From positions 58,834-122,833 of the forward strand of contig JAADIO010000055.1 in assembly GCA_013151235.1 (NCBI GenBank): 64,000 nt of DNA. Direction: 5' to 3'. The stretch's first letter is position 1, and each line of letters opens with the position of its first letter. The notes under the pieces were generated by a model, which saw only the letters and a program-made list of their open reading frames with translations, was not told the origin of the DNA and made no database searches. Below are positions 8,518 through 38,077 of the stretch, piece by piece. A program made the position numbers and the translations under genes. The DNA is from Deltaproteobacteria bacterium. GTDB lineage: Bacteria > CG2-30-53-67.

Positions 8518-9069
8518 ATGTTAGATCCCAAAACGGTTACTTTATATACAGGCGGTCACAAAGGCACCGAAGAATATTTTGGAATATCCGCCGAAAAGTG
8601 GGGAATGAAAGAGGTGACCTTCAACTTTGAAGGACATGAAATCAACCGTCGGCGGGGATTGAAAATCCTGTCCGAGGAGGAACTCCTGCGTGGCGCCGTC
8701 GGCCCGGACATTATCCAGAAACGTATGGAACGTACATTCGCGACCACCCCCATCATGCAGAAAATATTTCAGATCCAGTTTCATATTATCAACAACGGTT
8801 ATCAGGTTTTCGCTGTCGGCTGGTTATTGTCAAACGGAACGGTCAAAGGCGGCACCGGCTGGGGAGTGGAACTGGCAAAGTTATTCAACCGCCCGGTGCA
8901 TCTCTTTGAGCAGGAGAGGAAGGAGTGGGTCTCCTGGGTCCACAATGAGTGGATCACGGAGGAACCCGTCATCGCACATAAAACACTGGCCATGACGGGG
9001 ACACGATATTTGAGCGAAGATGGCAAAGCTGCCATAGATCAGCTCTTCGAACGGTCGTTCAATGGTTAA
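8518..9069 (+). CDS. Conserved protein resembling SLOG/YpsA-like Rossmann nucleotide-binding proteins
   Basis: 183 aa with a good ribosome binding site (GAGGAGAAAATC before ATG 8518). The N-terminus TLYTGGHKGTEEYFG and the internal VFAVGWLLSNGTVKGGTGWG look like the two glycine-rich loops of SLOG/LOG-type nucleoside-binding Rossmann folds. The C-terminal region AMTGTRYLSEDGKAAID and LFERSF also looks conserved. It has no partner gene: the flanking genes are divergent (DUF89) and convergent (DUF1641). SLOG proteins sense or process nucleotide-derived ligands in several contexts, so a ligand-sensing role is possible, but no function can be assigned. The CDS is secure; the family assignment is from motif memory. 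Confidence 0.6.
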   Translation: MLDPKTVTLYTGGHKGTEEYFGISAEKWGMKEVTFNFEGHEINRRRGLKILSEEELLRGAVGPDIIQKRMERTFATTPIMQKIFQIQFHIINNGYQVFAVGWLLSNGTVKGGTGWGVELAKLFNRPVHLFEQERKEWVSWVHNEWITEEPVIAHKTLAMTGTRYLSEDGKAAIDQLFERSFNG

Positions 9070-9232: not shown

Positions 9233-10018
9233 CTACAGCTTGGGTCCGTTCTCGGAATAGAGGCTTTGATGGAAGTGCCGGGCAAAGCTCATGACAAAGA
9301 GGAGACTCTGCCGAACCTCGGGATCCCGGGCCGCTTTCCAGAGGGCCGGCAGCCCGGCCTTCTTCGGCTGATCTTTCATCTCCGCCATCGCTTCCTGTGC
9401 ACTTTCCACCGCCGCACCGATCAGGTCTTGAATCTGGGGGTTCATAAGACGGCTCACCAGATTCTCAAACATGCTCAACATCCGCTCGACGATGCTGTCG
9501 GTAAAGGCATGCGTCGTCGAACCGAGAAACGTCGCCATCTGAGTCAGGACTTCCAGACTACCACTGTTAATCAACTCCTCAATCGCCGGCATCGCCCGCA
9601 TTAGGTCCGCTTTTGCCAGTTCATCCAACAGGGCCATCATCGTTTCCATGTTTGCAGCCATCCGTGCAATGACGCTGTCTCCCATGGAGTTTTTGGCCGC
9701 ACTGATGAAGAGGGCCACCTCCTTGAGATCATTCAGAGAGCCACTTTGGTACAACTCCGTCAGGGTCCGGACTGATTGCTGCACGGCCTGAAAGACTTCG
9801 GGCTTCGCCACCTGATCGGCCAGAGCCGTCAGGGGCTCCATGATCGCGGCCATCCGCTCGATCATGGGGTCGGTTTGTGAATCCTTGTAGGCCTGAATCG
9901 CCCCGGCGACCTCCGACAGAGTCTCCGCATGGTTCCGGAGACCATCGATGGAATTCGAACCGGCCTGCATCATCGTCGGTAGATCCGGTTCCCGTAGCTC
10001 TTTATTCTGCATGGACAT
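9233..10018 (-). CDS. DUF1641 domain protein, last gene of sulfur/quinone oxidoreductase operon
   Basis: 261 aa, mostly amphipathic helix. It contains internally repeated blocks of the form SGSLNDLKEVALFISAAKNS and SGSLEVLTQMATFLGSTTHA, each followed by a stretch of the type VIARMAANMETMMALLDELA, so it is built from about three related helical repeats. The C-terminus (KKAGLPALWKAARDPEVRQS and LLFVMSFARHF) matches the DUF1641 segment found next to SQR-like flavoproteins in many prokaryotes. The start at 10018 is supported by GGGAGG. It lies 14 bases after the flavoprotein stop. A scaffold or membrane-tether role for the oxidoreductase is inference. Confidence 0.85.
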   Translation of the reverse strand: MSMQNKELREPDLPTMMQAGSNSIDGLRNHAETLSEVAGAIQAYKDSQTDPMIERMAAIMEPLTALADQVAKPEVFQAVQQSVRTLTELYQSGSLNDLKEVALFISAAKNSMGDSVIARMAANMETMMALLDELAKADLMRAMPAIEELINSGSLEVLTQMATFLGSTTHAFTDSIVERMLSMFENLVSRLMNPQIQDLIGAAVESAQEAMAEMKDQPKKAGLPALWKAARDPEVRQSLLFVMSFARHFHQSLYSENGPKL

Positions 10019-11574: not shown

Positions 11575-11979
11575 CTAAAGATTGATAATATTATACCCTT
11601 CTGCGTCCACGAGAAACTTCGTCATCCCTGCGACTTCGTCGAAGACGTCCTCCTCAAGGTCCGCCTCCGTCATACCGAGTACCTCCATCGCCATGGGACA
11701 GGCATAGATCTTTGCCGCACCGAACTCCCGTGCCTGCCGGAAGAGATCGAGATAGGGGGGAACCTTCTTCGCTTGCAGGACCTTTGAAAAATCCGCCCCG
11801 GAGAAACGTTCTTCGTCACCAATCCCCTTCCGGAACTTCCGAATCGCCCCCATAGAGACGAAGAGCAGGACCTCAATCCCGGACACGGCCGCCACCGAGG
11901 CAATCATGCCGGCAAGCTGAACCTTTACATAGTCCTCGGATGAGAGGATGATTGCGATCTTTCTTCCCTCTGCCGTCAT
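11575..11979 (-). CDS. DsrE/DsrF-like (peroxiredoxin-like) sulfurtransferase subunit
   Basis: 134 aa DsrE-family protein. N-terminal strand KIAIILSSEDYVKVQLAGMI, middle VEVLLF-like strand (IEVLLFVSMGAI), and a conserved cysteine C94 in AKIYACPMAMEVLGM, the position that carries persulfide in this family. ATG 11979 is preceded by AAGGAGGGCTT. It is the first gene behind a strong sigma-54-type promoter (12039-12056) and is followed by tusA. Together they form a DsrE-TusA persulfide relay. It is not the DsrE of a full dsrEFH set, since no dsrF or dsrH is present. Confidence 0.88.
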   Translation of the reverse strand: MTAEGRKIAIILSSEDYVKVQLAGMIASVAAVSGIEVLLFVSMGAIRKFRKGIGDEERFSGADFSKVLQAKKVPPYLDLFRQAREFGAAKIYACPMAMEVLGMTEADLEEDVFDEVAGMTKFLVDAEGYNIINL

Positions 11980-12038
11980 AAGCCCTCCTTACGCAACCCC
12001 TGGAATCTTTCCATCCTTTGCCTTCCTCCCTGTTAAAA

Positions 12039-12056
12039 AGCAAAGGAGATGCCAAA
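12039..12056 (-). promoter_or_regulatory. Sigma-54 (RpoN) promoter of the dsrE-tusA-SQR-DUF1641 operon
   Basis: On the minus strand the sequence reads TTGGCATCTCCTTTGCTT. This gives GG and GC elements separated by exactly 10 bases, the hallmark of -24/-12 promoters, and matches TGGCAC-N5-TTGC closely. The predicted start near 12028 leaves a leader of about 49 bases before the dsrE ATG at 11979. The gene immediately upstream encodes an NtrC-family activator, and rpoN is in this window. Confidence 0.8.
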
Positions 12057-12077
12057 TATTCACAAATATGAATATTT
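12054..12077. promoter_or_regulatory. AT-rich inverted repeat abutting the sigma-54 promoter
   Basis: AAATATTC and GAATATTT, perfect 8-base arms, are separated by ACAAATAT. The repeat is centred about 37 bases upstream of the predicted dsrE transcription start, just outside the -24 element. This is too close for a normal enhancer-binding-protein site, so a repressor site or a second regulator is possible. Confidence 0.45.
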
Positions 12078-12116
12078 TCGATAACCCGATGATTTGACGT
12101 CTTTTTTTTGATTAGT

Positions 12117-12132
12117 TTGAAAGGAATTTCAA
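12117..12132. promoter_or_regulatory. Candidate upstream activator (enhancer) site for the NtrC-type regulator
   Basis: The palindrome TTGAAAGGAATTTCAA has 6-base arms and a 4-base spacer, centred about 97 bases upstream of the predicted sigma-54 transcription start. That is the usual distance for an NtrC-family dimer site. A weaker related repeat, GAATT-N7-AATTC, lies at 12164-12180. Assignment to the adjacent regulator is inference. Confidence 0.45.
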
Positions 12133-12233
12133 CAAGCGGGACGCCCTCGATTTGCAGAAATGAGAATTGAGGCGAAATTCCGGTCGCAAAATTGAGAAGG
12201 GAAGAGATGAAGACAAAATTCTTTTGTGGGGGA

Positions 12234-13580
12234 TTATTCTTTCTGTTCCAGTTTCCTGTAGAGCGTCGCCAGACTGATCCCAAGTCGTTCCGCCGCTTTC
12301 TGCTTGTCGCAGCCGGACCGTTCAAGAACCCCTTCAATATGCATCCTTTCGTAAACCCGGAGTGCGCTTTTTAGATTTTCTCTGGAGAGGGTCTCGGAGC
12401 GGCGATCCCCCTCCAGGAGATTCGGCGGCAGGTCTTCCGGTTGCAGCGTGGGAGGCGTCCCGAGAATCATGCTTCGTTCCATGACATTTTCCAGTTCCCG
12501 GATATTGCCTTTCCACCGGTACCCGGACAGAACCCGCAGAACCTCCGGGGAGACATCCCGGAACCGGCGGTTCATTTCAAGATTGTACTTCCGAATAAAA
12601 TGATTGACCAACAGAGGGAGATCATCGATCCGCTCCCGCAATGGAGGGACCTTGATCTCTACAATATTGAGCCGATAGTAAAGATCCTCCCGGAAGGTCC
12701 CGGCATTCATCCGCTCCTGAAGATCCTGATGGGTCGCTGCGATGAGACGGATATCAACCTTGACTCGTTCCGTCCCTCCCACAGGCAGGATCTCCTTTTC
12801 TTCAATAGCCCGAAGGAGCTTGGTCTGGAGCCCAACGGAAAGGTCCCCTATCTCATCGAGAAACAGGGTCCCCTCGTTAGCGACCTCAAAGAGCCCCTTC
12901 CTGTCTTCCTGCGCATCGGTGAAGGCCCCCTTGCGATAGCCGAAAAGCATGGAATCAAGGAGGGTCGCAGGAATGGCACAACAATTGACGGGAATGAACC
13001 GTTTCGCCCGCCGGTCACTCCTGTTGTGAATAGCCCGGGCCACTAATTCCTTGCCGGTCCCGCTCTCCCCCGTAATCAGGACAGTCCCCTTGGAAGAGGC
13101 CACCCTTTTGATCAATTCCAGCATCTCCCGAACCGGTTGAGACTGCCCGATAATATCGGAGAAATCGTATCGGCCTGCGACCTCTTCCCGAAGGAGCCGG
13201 TTATCCTCGGTCAGGTCGGTGAGTTGAAACAGCTTTTTGATCCGGAAGACGACGTCATCCAGGAGAAAAGGTTTGATGATGTAATCCACCGCACCCTGCC
13301 GCAGGGCCTCCACCGCCGTATCGACGGAAGCATAGGCCGTCATCATGACCACCGGCGTGCCGGGCCGGGAGGTCTTAATCCGTCGGAGCAGATCAATCCC
13401 GTTTATGCCGGGCATCCGAATGTCGCAGATGACGGCATCGAAAGCAATGCGATCGAAGAGTGTCGAGGCCTCATCTCCGTCGGCCGCCGTCACCGGGCTG
13501 TATCCTTCCTCGGCAAGAACCGACGACAGGGATTCCCGGATGGTTGTCTCATCATCAACGATAAGAATTTTCTTTGACAT
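12234..13580 (-). CDS. NtrC-family sigma-54-dependent response regulator
   Basis: 448 aa with three domains. The receiver spans about 1-120 (ILIVDDETTIRESL; phospho-acceptor D in CDIRMPGING; K in YIIKPF). The AAA+ sigma-54 interaction domain spans about 140-370 (Walker A ITGESGTGKELVARAIH, GAFTDA loop in GYRKGAFTDAQEDRKG, Walker B GTLFLDEIGDL, arginine finger region). A Fis-type helix-turn-helix lies at the C-terminus (KQKAAERLGISLATLYRKLE). The canonical GAFTGA loop reads GAFTDA here, a tolerated variant. It follows the two-CW kinase by six bases, so the two are a pair. Just downstream, on the same strand, lies a sigma-54 promoter for sulfur-transfer genes, its most likely target. Confidence 0.95.
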   Translation of the reverse strand: MSKKILIVDDETTIRESLSSVLAEEGYSPVTAADGDEASTLFDRIAFDAVICDIRMPGINGIDLLRRIKTSRPGTPVVMMTAYASVDTAVEALRQGAVDYIIKPFLLDDVVFRIKKLFQLTDLTEDNRLLREEVAGRYDFSDIIGQSQPVREMLELIKRVASSKGTVLITGESGTGKELVARAIHNRSDRRAKRFIPVNCCAIPATLLDSMLFGYRKGAFTDAQEDRKGLFEVANEGTLFLDEIGDLSVGLQTKLLRAIEEKEILPVGGTERVKVDIRLIAATHQDLQERMNAGTFREDLYYRLNIVEIKVPPLRERIDDLPLLVNHFIRKYNLEMNRRFRDVSPEVLRVLSGYRWKGNIRELENVMERSMILGTPPTLQPEDLPPNLLEGDRRSETLSRENLKSALRVYERMHIEGVLERSGCDKQKAAERLGISLATLYRKLEQKE

Positions 13581-13586
13581 CTTCCC

Positions 13587-14756
13587 TCACTCCTGTCGAC
13601 TGCAACTCAATTCCAGGGGAAGGAAAACCCGGAAGGTACTCCCTTTCCCCGGACAACTTTCAACTTCAATTCTACCACCGAGACTTTCCATAACACCGTA
13701 GCTGATAAAGAGTCCCAGCCCCGTGCCGCGTCCCACGTCCTTGGTGGTGAAAAAGGGCTCAAAGATCTTCGGCACAATCTCGGGAGGGATCCCCGTTCCC
13801 GTATCTGAAATTTCGATGACGACCCATTCCCCGGCCCGGCAAGTCTCTAACGTCAGGGTTCCCTCTCCCTCCATAGCATCGGCGGCATTGATCATCAGGT
13901 TCATCAAGACCTGCAACAGGGAATCACGCACCAGTTCCAGCGGGGGGAGCTTAGGATCAAAGTCGGTGACGATCCGAAGCCCGGCGGCCGTCTGGTTGTA
14001 CTTTAGAAAAGCCAGCGCATTCTCCAGGACCTCCCGCAGATTCACCCGCTCCGTCCCTTTCCGGGCGGGCCGGGAAAAATCGACCAACTCCCGTACGATC
14101 CCTGAAATCCGGTTGATATGGGTCAGGATCGATGCCAGCCTTTCTTCGTTCCCGGGATCATCGATCCTGCGCCGGATCAATTGAACCAGCGTGGAGATCG
14201 AGGCAAGTGGATTCCCCACCTCATGCGCAATCCCCGAAGCCAGAAGCCCCAAGGCGGCCATCTTCTCCTGGTGAACAAGTTGAGCCTGGGATTCCCGGAG
14301 CTGAAGCGTCGCTTCCCGTACCCGTCTCTCAAGTCTCCGTTCGGCTTCCAGAATCTGTTCCATTTTCCGGTCCAGACTGAACATCATATCATTGAAGAGT
14401 TCCCCCATCTTGTCGGTGGGATTCTTCGTCGCCGCCTGAAAAACTTCACATTGCCGACAATCCTCTAATGGGTGAACCCGATTATGAGAGGGGGACTTCC
14501 CACAGTAGGTCCCGGCAATCTGCCAGCAACGGAGATTGGCGGACTGATAGGCAGGACAATCCTGTCGGAAGCACCGGGTCATCTCCCAACACCGAAGGAG
14601 ACGGGGATTTTCGAAGCGGGTCTTAAAATCCCGGCTCTGTTCCGCCTCAAAAAAGAGGCGGCCCAATTCCGTGGTCAGCCGTTCGAACTCCGTCTTGCAA
14701 TCCTTCAGTTCCTTCAGCTCCGCCCGCAGATTACGGACGTTCTCTTCTCCTGCCAT
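13587..14756 (-). CDS. Cytosolic histidine kinase with cysteine-rich two-CW sensor region
   Basis: 389 aa from ATG 14756, without clear membrane segments from this start. After an N-terminal coiled coil comes a cysteine-rich region with two CW motifs: [19 protein letters not shown], then [12 protein letters not shown] and [12 protein letters not shown], about residues 50-115. This resembles the two-CW domain predicted to bind metal or sense redox state. A second coiled coil leads to the HisKA box [15 protein letters not shown], the N box LMINAADAM, and G boxes DTGTGIP and GTGLGL. Its start overlaps the upstream FAD dehydrogenase gene by 26 bases, and the response regulator follows after six bases. 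Redox or sulfur sensing is inference from the cysteines and neighbours. Confidence 0.9.
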
Positions 14757-16353
14757 GGCATTCCAACCCCTCCATCCCCAGTAAAGACAATACACAATAT
14801 ACCCCATCCAGGGCGGAGCTGACAATTCCCCCGGCATAGCCGGCCCCCTCCCCTAAAGGATAGAGACCTCTCACCGTCACTGAGGCGTAATCCTTTCCCC
14901 GGACAAGCCGTACCGGAGAAGAGGTCCGGGTCTCCACACCGATCAGGATTCCGTCCTCGGAGATAAAACCGGGAATTTTCTTCCCCCAGACCCGCAGCGC
15001 CCCCTTGAGCCCCGTCGTCACAAAATCGGGCAACACTGCGTGGAGGTCACAGGAGTAGACCCCCGGCCGGTAGGTCGTTTCCGGAAGACTGGACGAAACA
15101 GTCCGCCTCAGAAAATCAGTAACCCGCTGTGCCGGTGCGGAGTAATTCTCTCCCCCCGCTCGAAAGGCCGCCTCCTCCCACTTTCTCAGAAAGGCAAGAC
15201 CTGCGAGAGGCCCCCGGCCCGAAAAGTCCTCCCTGCGAACCGATACCACCAGACCGCTGTCGGCATAGCCGCTTGCCCGGCCAAAACGGCTCATGCCGTT
15301 GGTGACGATCCGACCCGGCTGAGAATTAGCTGCAATCACCTGCCCGCCGGGACACATGCAGAAGGTATAGACCCCGCGATCCTGTTTACGATCCCGGTAG
15401 GTTAAACGATAACGGGAGGGACCGAGCCTCGGATGACCCGCCCACCGGCCATATTGAACCCGGTCGAGCCTCCCCTGGGGATGTTCAATCCGGACTCCGA
15501 CGGCCAAGGGCTTTTGTTCCATCGCGACGCCGGCCCGCTCCAGAACGGCATAGGTGTCTTCCGCCCCATGGCCTGTTGCCAAAACGAGCCGGTCCGTTTC
15601 AATTTTTTCCCCGTTCTCCAACCCAAGACCACACAACCGGCCATTCTTCACAAGAATTCCGGTCATCCGGCTTCCAAAACGGACTTCGCCCCCGAGAGAC
15701 TCAATCTCTTTTCGCAGGGCAACAATCACGCCCCGAAGCCGGTCGGTCCCAATATGAGGATAGGCCTCGTAGAGAATTTCCGAAGGTGCCCCGGCTTTTA
15801 CAAATTCGGAGAGAAGCCAGGGAATCATCGCCGACCGTTTTCCCGTGGTCAGTTTTCCGTCGGAGAAGGTCCCGGCCCCTCCCTCTCCGAAACAGACGTT
15901 GCTCTCGGACCGGAACACCCCCTTCGACCAGAAGGTGGAGACATCCCGGACCCGTTCCTGCATGGGACGTCCCCGTTCAAGAACGATCGGCTCCGCCCCC
16001 GCCCGGGCCAGGAGAAGGGCGGCGAAGATCCCGGCGGGACCAAAGCCGACGACGACCGGCCTTTTATAAAAACTTTTCTTGTGAAGTACGAAAGGCGGCC
16101 CCGGAGGCATCACGATTTCGGCCGAAATACCTTCTTTTTCTCTGATGATCTTGAGGAGTTCTTCTTCCCCATCCGCGGAAATTTCAACCGTATAGAGAAT
16201 GCGAACATCGTGACGTGCATCAATGGAACGTTTCAGAATGTGGAGGGAACGGATCCGGCCGGAGGGAATGTGGAGAAGGTCGGCCAGCACATCTTTCAAA
16301 TCCCTGCGATCTTCGTCAGGAGTGAGCCGAATTTCTCGAATTGAAAAAGGCAT
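14731..16353 (-). CDS. FAD-dependent dehydrogenase (COG2509-like NAD(FAD)-utilising protein)
   Basis: 540 aa flavoprotein of the large uncharacterised FAD-dependent dehydrogenase family. An N-terminal alpha/beta domain (about 1-90, IREIRLTPDEDRRDLKDVLA) precedes the FAD fold: VVVGFGPAGIFAALLLARAG, then RSESNVCFGEGGAGTFSDGK, LVLATGHGAEDTYAVLERAG, FCMCPGGQVIAANSQPGR and the C-terminal GLYPLGEGAGYAGGIVSSA. The enzymatic substrate is unknown. It begins just downstream of the ahcY terminator and overlaps the start of the two-CW kinase, so it is likely the first gene of a dehydrogenase-kinase-regulator operon and could be functionally tied to the signal they sense. Confidence 0.9.
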   Translation of the reverse strand: MPFSIREIRLTPDEDRRDLKDVLADLLHIPSGRIRSLHILKRSIDARHDVRILYTVEISADGEEELLKIIREKEGISAEIVMPPGPPFVLHKKSFYKRPVVVGFGPAGIFAALLLARAGAEPIVLERGRPMQERVRDVSTFWSKGVFRSESNVCFGEGGAGTFSDGKLTTGKRSAMIPWLLSEFVKAGAPSEILYEAYPHIGTDRLRGVIVALRKEIESLGGEVRFGSRMTGILVKNGRLCGLGLENGEKIETDRLVLATGHGAEDTYAVLERAGVAMEQKPLAVGVRIEHPQGRLDRVQYGRWAGHPRLGPSRYRLTYRDRKQDRGVYTFCMCPGGQVIAANSQPGRIVTNGMSRFGRASGYADSGLVVSVRREDFSGRGPLAGLAFLRKWEEAAFRAGGENYSAPAQRVTDFLRRTVSSSLPETTYRPGVYSCDLHAVLPDFVTTGLKGALRVWGKKIPGFISEDGILIGVETRTSSPVRLVRGKDYASVTVRGLYPLGEGAGYAGGIVSSALDGVYCVLSLLGMEGLECHGRRRERP

Positions 16354-36652: not shown

Positions 36653-38077
36653 TTACCGGATCATTCTTCTTCTTTCCGTTGTGGAAAGAATATTCTGCTC
36701 GATACGATATTTCGTGACCGTTCTCCGGGCAATATCTATCCCCTGCTTTTGAAGAATCTCAACAATCTTCTGGTCACTGAGCGGTTTCTTCCGATCTTCC
36801 TCCATGATAATCTTGCGAATCTGTTCCTGAACACTGATCGACGAAACCGTCCCATCCTCCGTACGAAGGCCGCTGCAAAAGAAATATTTCAGCTCGAAGA
36901 TCCCGTGGGGCGTATGGACATATTTGTTGGTCGTCACCCGGCTGATCGTGGACTCATGCATATTGATGTCCTCCGCTACATCCCGCAGCACCATCGGCTT
37001 CAAACGCGAAGGTCCCTTCTCAAAAAAATCCCGCTGAAATTTCAGGATGCTTTCCATGGTCCGGTAGATGGTCTTCTGCCGCTGTTCAATACTCCGAATC
37101 AACCAGAGGGCGGACTTGAACTTCCCCTCTACATATTCCGCCGTGGACCGATTCATCTGGTTCTTATTTTTCAACATCCGACGATAAAAGGAAGAGACTC
37201 TGAGGCGCGGCAAGCCATCATCGTTCAGGAGAATGAGAAAATCATTTTCATCGCGGACCACATAAATGTCCGGGATAATATAGACCGGGTCCTCCCCGCC
37301 GAACGAGCGGCCCGGTTTGGGTTCAAGGTTCTCAATGACCCGGGATGCCGTGTCGACATCCTCCAGCGTTACCTCCAGTTTTCGGGCAATGGCGGCATAA
37401 TCCTTTTTCTGCAACCATGGAAGATAATCCTTGATCATGGCTTCCACCAGCGGCAGATCGGCATCCAGTTGCCGGACCTGAAGAAGTAGACACTCCTGTA
37501 GATCTCTGGCACCTACACCGACGGGATCCAGACTCTGGACAAGGTCCAGCGCCCGTGCAATGGTCTCCGCTTCCGCCCCCGTCATCGTCTCCAACTCCGT
37601 CTCGCTCACGCGCAGATAGCCGTCCCCATCCAGATTACCGATGATGTTTTCCGCGATCATCTTCTCTTCATCGCTTATGTGGGAGAGGTTCAATTGCCAA
37701 AGAAGGTGCTCACTCAAACTGGGTTTACGGGAAAGGGTATTCTCGTAGGAAGGGGTCTCACCATTGTCGGAATAGGGCTCATAGGCCTCGTAACCGGACC
37801 CCATGGAATCCTTCAGGTAGTGCTGCCAGTCAAAATCTTCCTCTTTTCGCTCCGGTTTACCGTCCTCTTCCGATTCTTTGTTGAGCGTGGCCCCTTTTTC
37901 CTCTTCCGTTAATTCCTGTGCTTCTTCTTCCAGGACCGGGTTTTCCACCAGTTCCTGATGGATACTCTGGATCAATTCCAATTTCGAGAGCTGGAGGAGC
38001 TTGATCGCCTGCTGAAGTTGGGGGGTCATCACCAGCTTCTGAGTCAGTTTCAGGTTGAGTCTCGTGTCTAATTGCAT
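36653..38077 (-). CDS. rpoN: RNA polymerase sigma-54 factor
   Basis: 474 aa from ATG 38077 (MQLDTRLNLKLTQKLVMTPQ). Region I is the Q/L-rich activator-contact segment MTPQLQQAIKLLQLSKLELI; region II is strongly acidic; the core-binding domain and FLRPMVLRDVAEDINMHEST-type helix-turn-helix (MVLRDVAEDINMHESTISRV) follow, and the C-terminal RpoN box reads IARRTVTKYR. This factor would serve the -24/-12 promoter at 12039 and the NtrC-family regulators in this window. It lies between lptB and hpf. Confidence 0.98.
   Translation of the reverse strand: MQLDTRLNLKLTQKLVMTPQLQQAIKLLQLSKLELIQSIHQELVENPVLEEEAQELTEEEKGATLNKESEEDGKPERKEEDFDWQHYLKDSMGSGYEAYEPYSDNGETPSYENTLSRKPSLSEHLLWQLNLSHISDEEKMIAENIIGNLDGDGYLRVSETELETMTGAEAETIARALDLVQSLDPVGVGARDLQECLLLQVRQLDADLPLVEAMIKDYLPWLQKKDYAAIARKLEVTLEDVDTASRVIENLEPKPGRSFGGEDPVYIIPDIYVVRDENDFLILLNDDGLPRLRVSSFYRRMLKNKNQMNRSTAEYVEGKFKSALWLIRSIEQRQKTIYRTMESILKFQRDFFEKGPSRLKPMVLRDVAEDINMHESTISRVTTNKYVHTPHGIFELKYFFCSGLRTEDGTVSSISVQEQIRKIIMEEDRKKPLSDQKIVEILQKQGIDIARRTVTKYRIEQNILSTTERRRMIR

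Follow-up and report, generated by a model that had tools for sequence, protein, structure and literature searches.

Which genes answer to the two-component system encoded in a 64,000-nucleotide stretch of a deltaproteobacterial genome (contig JAADIO010000055.1 of assembly GCA_013151235.1, positions 58,834 to 122,833; hereafter, the window)? At this locus, the genes for a histidine kinase with two CW motifs and for an NtrC-type response regulator lie upstream of a sigma-54 promoter and an operon that encodes a DsrE-family protein, a TusA-family sulfur carrier, an SQR-like flavoprotein and a DUF1641 protein. A sequence-only reading had taken this arrangement for a cysteine-sensing switch with a private sulfur relay operon. 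Comparison of the window genome (G000) with a sister species of the same genus (G001) and two genomes of another genus in the same family (G002 and G004) suggests a looser arrangement, in which the kinase/regulator pair drives sigma-54 transcription of interchangeable sulfur operons; we put the probability of this interpretation at about 0.55.

All seven minus-strand genes that had been proposed are present, with their domains verified by Pfam (Table 1). The kinase gene overlaps the 3' end of the gene for a flavin adenine dinucleotide (FAD)-dependent protein, the regulator gene starts 6 bases after the kinase gene, and the cargo genes occupy 11979-9233, separated by gaps of 26, 139 and 14 bases, and so extend beyond the left border of 11575 drawn earlier. 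The promoter, TTGGCATCTCCTTTGCT, has the exact GG-N10-GC spacing attributed to it and is the sole site in the 64 kb to score at least 13, our threshold, on a sigma-54 weight matrix built by hand from the known consensus. Exact matches to YTGGCAYN5TTGCW number 23 in the window genome compared with 3 for the reversed pattern, and some of them precede genes that, named from their sequence, are GlnB/K-, AmtB-, flagellar- and pilin-like, typical company of sigma-54. When conservation was checked, the −24/−12 elements proved to be retained at all four copies of the DsrE operon in the window's family, and they are retained also at both readable copies of the PhsA operon described below. The promoter is almost certainly real, and the regulator probably acts on it.

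The sister species provides the key comparison. In G001, orthologues of the kinase (77% identity; 60% in G002) and of the regulator (81% identity) are followed by an orthologous promoter, in which 178 bp align locally with that of the window (score 54 against a shuffle maximum of 15.5), and then by a different sulfur operon. Its genes encode, in order, a cytochrome-like protein, a Sulf_transp protein, a TorD-like chaperone, a PhsA-like molybdoenzyme (3.3e-190 and 634 bits against the PhsA model, the cut-off of which is 694), an iron-sulfur protein, NrfD and a cytochrome b. That a different sulfur operon follows the orthologous pair and promoter in this species makes the adjacent pair the likely regulator. 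Thus, of the earlier interpretation, the sigma-54 promoter in front of a sulfur operon and the neighbouring pair as its likely regulator stand, whereas the coupling to this particular operon is not conserved. G002 has the same PhsA operon with −24/−12 elements, located elsewhere than the pair.

A palindrome of the type TTCTCA-N4-TGAGAA, scored allowing TTATCA and TGATAA halves, recurs upstream of these promoters. The site is perfect at the PhsA promoters of G001 and G002 and matches at 11 of 12 positions at the DsrE operons of G002 and G004; in the window, the first half-site of the candidate TTCTCATTTCTGCAAA aligns locally with the perfect site of G001. G001 (2.9 Mb) contains two exact matches to TT[CA]TCA-N4-TGA[GT]AA, each of them upstream of the sigma-54 promoter of a related cytochrome operon, and the second was not used for motif discovery, having turned up after the motif was fixed. 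The single exact match in the G002 genome is the PhsA promoter, so that perfect sites lie upstream of three sigma-54 operons among the relatives; the one exact match of the window genome and the three of G005, a genome lacking the pair, have no sigma-54 site nearby. A perfect site in G001 stands 236 bp upstream of the sigma-54-type promoter TTGGCATACATCTTGCG (L288/L256, G001:C199, 190-1533), which precedes genes for a second KNCHE cytochrome and a Rieske-like protein, and this operon is likely a further member of the regulon. A different palindrome, TTGAAA-N4-TTTCAA (12117-12132, minus strand), had been nominated previously as the enhancer. It is real and has no other exact copy in the genome, but it is not conserved: the other promoters total 51, where shuffles average 50 (p = 0.42 for the set). 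Accordingly, we reject it in this role. The conserved AAATCATCGGGTTAT block resembles an IHF site, with one mismatch to the consensus, and is a candidate only.

In the kinase, alignment identifies both CW motifs with their flanking cysteines, and eight cysteines (C20, C56, C62, C67, C77, C85, C100 and C103) are invariant in three species, all but C20 lying inside the two-CW segment. The earlier description of a two-CW kinase with about eight cysteines is upheld on these counts, although the score against the NF045718 model is borderline (32.7 bits for the protein alone and 34.7/35.6 in the genome search, with a curated cut-off of 35). Apart from the two-CW domain, no known sensor family is predicted in the kinase by Pfam, which recognizes HisKA and HATPase_c. 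The NF045718 proteins share the pair of CW motifs and their cysteine spacing with the window kinase but, unlike it, are mostly either small proteins on their own or signalling fusions of other kinds. In other bacteria, two-CW segments precede HD, GGDEF and histidine-kinase domains in the same protein (L194 1150-2331, L195 826-1791, L197 1330-3147, L198 115-2604), a diversity of outputs that would fit a general cytosolic input module. A literature search for the name 'two-CW domain' returned no paper. The regulator carries GAFTDA in the AAA+ loop where GAFTGA is standard; this variant is among those listed as retaining function and is carried by DVU2106 (PMC4641369).

That the kinase senses reactive sulfur is possible, at somewhat less than even odds. 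The segment might instead be a metal or iron-sulfur redox sensor of anaerobiosis, such that the redox state rather than a sulfur compound switches the sulfur genes. The spaced cysteine cluster, in a kinase that has no transmembrane part, would point to a metal site in the cytosol, but the cofactor is a prediction only and the cargo is sulfur-specific in both species, and we consider this alternative rather unlikely.

Several observations weigh against control of interchangeable operons by the pair. The pair, present in G000, G001, G002 and G004, adjoins the DsrE operon in the window genome only: two-CW kinases were sought beside this operon and none was found in the available flanks of about 80 related operons, at a second copy in the window genome (L049), in G002 or in G004. 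Hence the linkage is not conserved, and the coupling put forward in the sequence-only reading fails the test of conservation that it had set for itself. L066 and L090 do encode kinases close to the operon, but these lack the two-CW motif and were rejected. The absence of both the pair and close relatives of the two operons from G003 and G005 is a co-occurrence that favours the interpretation; G002 and G004 are closely related, however, so that it amounts to roughly one evolutionary event. The TTCTCA-type site of the window is degraded (10/12, p = 0.04) and at the second DsrE copy is at chance level only. In an unbiased enumeration of inverted repeats, the TTCTCA motif scored 60 in six promoters compared with 56-59 in eight shuffles, and 49 in five promoters compared with null maxima of 47-50; barely exceeding the shuffles, the motif is weak by itself. 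Finally, a search for two-CW domains in G018, a genome of the SZUA-79 kind with the type of DsrE operon that is under sigma-54, found none, indicating that sigma-54 control of this operon can occur without the two-CW kinase.

These facts lend some credence to accidental proximity. The block of genes for MetK, SAHH, the FAD-dependent protein, the kinase and the regulator is syntenic in G001 and G002, and in G004 until the contig ends within the kinase gene; the pair could belong to this block and control other genes, the DsrE operon having arrived by duplication and answering to another sigma-54 activator. In G002, the pair keeps its place without an adjacent sulfur operon or sigma-54 site, and the DsrE operons of G002 and G004, like the second copy in the window genome, are unlinked to it; those of G002 and G004 also have −24/−12 elements. 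That copy (L049 5142-7998, G000:C72) is on another contig, encodes an SQR 88% identical to that of the window, and has −24/−12 elements without a TTCTCA site or an adjacent kinase; its promoter does not resemble that of the window (score 15, shuffle maximum 18), which suggests that the cargo was inserted under a resident promoter. However, the same pair and promoter are followed by a different sulfur operon in G001, and promoter elements are common to unlinked sulfur operons. We therefore regard mere adjacency as unlikely and retain the pair as the probable regulator. The FAD gene, previously counted as part of the system, occurs in all 9 genomes searched, including five that lack the kinase, and so is a neighbour rather than a component. 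In one genome without the kinase, G005, the FAD gene is followed directly by a gene for a cytochrome b like that ending the PhsA operon of G001 (L312 823-3120).

A stronger palindrome than the one proposed earlier, AATATTC-N8-GAATATT, abuts the −24 element and had been missed. Its core, ATTC-N8-GAAT, begins 18-19 bases before −24 in 3 of the 57 sigma-54-type sites examined in four genomes, namely at the window operon and at the PhsA operons of G001 and G002; none of the remaining sites comes within one mismatch of it. The arms are retained and the spacers vary (ATATTTGT, GCAAGTTG, TTAACAAT), and the three promoters share descent to differing degrees and are not independent. The full palindrome was rejected as the mark of a genome-wide regulon because its other exact copy (L150 1501-1522, G000:C69), about 170 bp before a receiver-domain gene, has no sigma-54 site nearby; a copy with one mismatch, common to G001, sits within a coding sequence. 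The core is the deduced recognition site of SqrR (PMC9774250), and its exact form at a fixed position relative to −24 in three sulfur promoters might suggest that a persulfide-sensing ArsR repressor of the SqrR/BigR type is the main control, with the kinase pair setting only the background, but this is very unlikely given that sigma-54 promoters require an activator anyway, that no SqrR/BigR-like cysteine pattern was seen among the PF01022 matches of four genomes (other ArsR models not searched), and that no exact site lies near the conserved trxA-linked ArsR. The thioredoxin-ArsR gene pair itself is conserved (L317 3453-4121, L319 4047-4683, L320 3840-4485); the ArsR protein, with two conserved cysteines (C31 and C69 in the window genome), is a possible thiol redox regulator. 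The binder of the core could even be the NtrC-type regulator.

Control of sulfur genes of this general kind is known. In TspS-TspR and sox-II of Acidithiobacillus (PMC6335251), a sigma-54 two-component pair lies immediately upstream of a sulfur operon that it activates via an upstream palindrome; the cargo there is Sox, the passages on it mention no two-CW kinase, and the palindrome, TGTCCCAAATGGGACA, does not occur at window positions 11980-12236. FisR of Cupriavidus and Acinetobacter is likewise a sigma-54 activator of an SQR operon responding to sulfide (PMC7315123), but it is a one-component regulator with PDO and TauE as cargo instead of DsrE-TusA-DUF1641, whereas the window regulator has a receiver domain and its operon has no PDO gene. 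The ArsR repressors SqrR, BigR and YgaV share the operator core with the window (PMC9774250), where, in contrast, the site abuts a sigma-54 promoter and no such repressor gene was identified. The system described here departs from these in having a two-CW kinase, DsrE-TusA-SQR-DUF1641 as cargo, a palindrome at −24 and an exchange of cargo beneath a single promoter.

The cargo operon itself occurs widely. Scanning 84,980 species genomes recovered 80 loci, G002 among them, mostly from Alphaproteobacteria, with other carriers in Magnetococcales, Gammaproteobacteria, Nitrospirae, SZUA-79-type metagenome-assembled genomes and further groups. The gene set, the gene order and the invariant cysteines are as in the window: C94 of DsrE in 68/68 relatives, C16 of TusA in 78/78, and C160 and C331 of the SQR-like protein, which align with the cysteines of SQR. 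The best PDB profile match of this protein is human SQR (3e-40), and the type III seleno-SQR model scores 339 bits against a cut-off of 525, which makes the protein related to that subtype and places it outside it. Such a cargo is expected to relay sulfane sulfur on single cysteines and to pass electrons from sulfide or persulfide to quinone. Among the 78 loci with readable upstream sequence, good −24/−12 elements occur in the window's family and in SZUA-79-type genomes; no match was found upstream of the alphaproteobacterial operons, which also differ in having no two-CW kinase in the flanks examined. The SZUA-79-type elements (L119-L131, L141), and weakly that of the deltaproteobacterial L133, lie 80-155 bp upstream of the DsrE operon, and sigma-54 control is accordingly predicted in a second lineage. 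The DsrE operon of G004 has two TusA genes (L050 8842-9454), which share 73% and 66% identity with their window counterpart. Downstream of the window operon, a convergent gene (8518-9069) encodes a 183-residue protein that matches a DprA-like PHROG family weakly and for which Pfam and NCBIfam searches gave no match.

Table 1. Features of the locus, in window coordinates
Feature	Position	Strand	Basis or remark
DUF1641 protein, final operon gene	9233-10018	-	Pfam
SQR-like flavoprotein, invariant C160 and C331	10033-11172	-	Pfam, PDB profile match, cysteine invariance
TusA-family sulfur carrier, CPGP motif, C16	11312-11548	-	Pfam
DsrE-family protein, single cysteine C94	11575-11979	-	Pfam
Sigma-54 −24/−12 promoter TTGGCATCTCCTTTGCT	12039-12055	-	Near-consensus, GG-N10-GC
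Palindrome AATATTC-N8-GAATATT abutting −24, core ATTC-N8-GAAT	12055-12076	-	Stronger palindrome
AAATCATCGGGTTAT block conserved in G001	12081-12095	-	Local alignment
Candidate regulator site TTCTCATTTCTGCAAA	12151-12166	-	10/12 to TT[CA]TCA-N4-TGA[GT]AA; 111 bp upstream of −24
Upstream TTCTCAAT element, matched by TTCTCAAT in G001; second candidate half-site	12183-12198	-	Local alignment
NtrC-type response regulator: receiver, sigma-54 AAA+, Fis-type helix-turn-helix	12234-13580	-	Pfam, sequence
Histidine kinase, HisKA and HATPase_c	13587-14756	-	Pfam; orthologues in G001, G002
Two-CW segment of kinase, residues 56-106	14439-14591	-	NF045718 borderline; cysteine invariance
FAD-dependent protein (FAD-depend_C)	14731-16353	-	Pfam; kinase neighbour, not specific to the sulfur system
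RpoN DNA-binding domain (sigma-54 itself)	36665-37138	-	PF04552, 1.3e-60

Taken together, the promoter, the gene order and the recurrence of the TTCTCA-type site are observed directly, and from them we infer the direction of regulation. Under the proposed model, the two-CW cysteine cluster at the kinase N-terminus would respond either to thiol-reactive sulfur species or to the redox or metal state, and the kinase would phosphorylate the NtrC-type regulator. The regulator would bind TTCTCA-type sites about 85-135 bp upstream of −24 and would activate sigma-54 transcription of whichever sulfur operon follows, DsrE-TusA-SQR-DUF1641 in the window and a putative thiosulfate or polysulfide reductase operon of the PhsA/NrfD type in the sister species. 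A further protein probably binds ATTC-N8-GAAT at −24 and may gate the promoter. A more elaborate version, which we consider doubtful, has two sulfur inputs meeting at one promoter, with activation by the two-CW pair and an SqrR-type site set against −24, and the regulator-promoter island serving as a docking place for swapped sulfur operons. If the model is correct, it would suggest a first function for the two-CW domain, a module of bacterial signalling proteins that has yet to be characterised, and would show the reuse of a regulator-plus-promoter island for different sulfur pathways in uncultivated bacteria.

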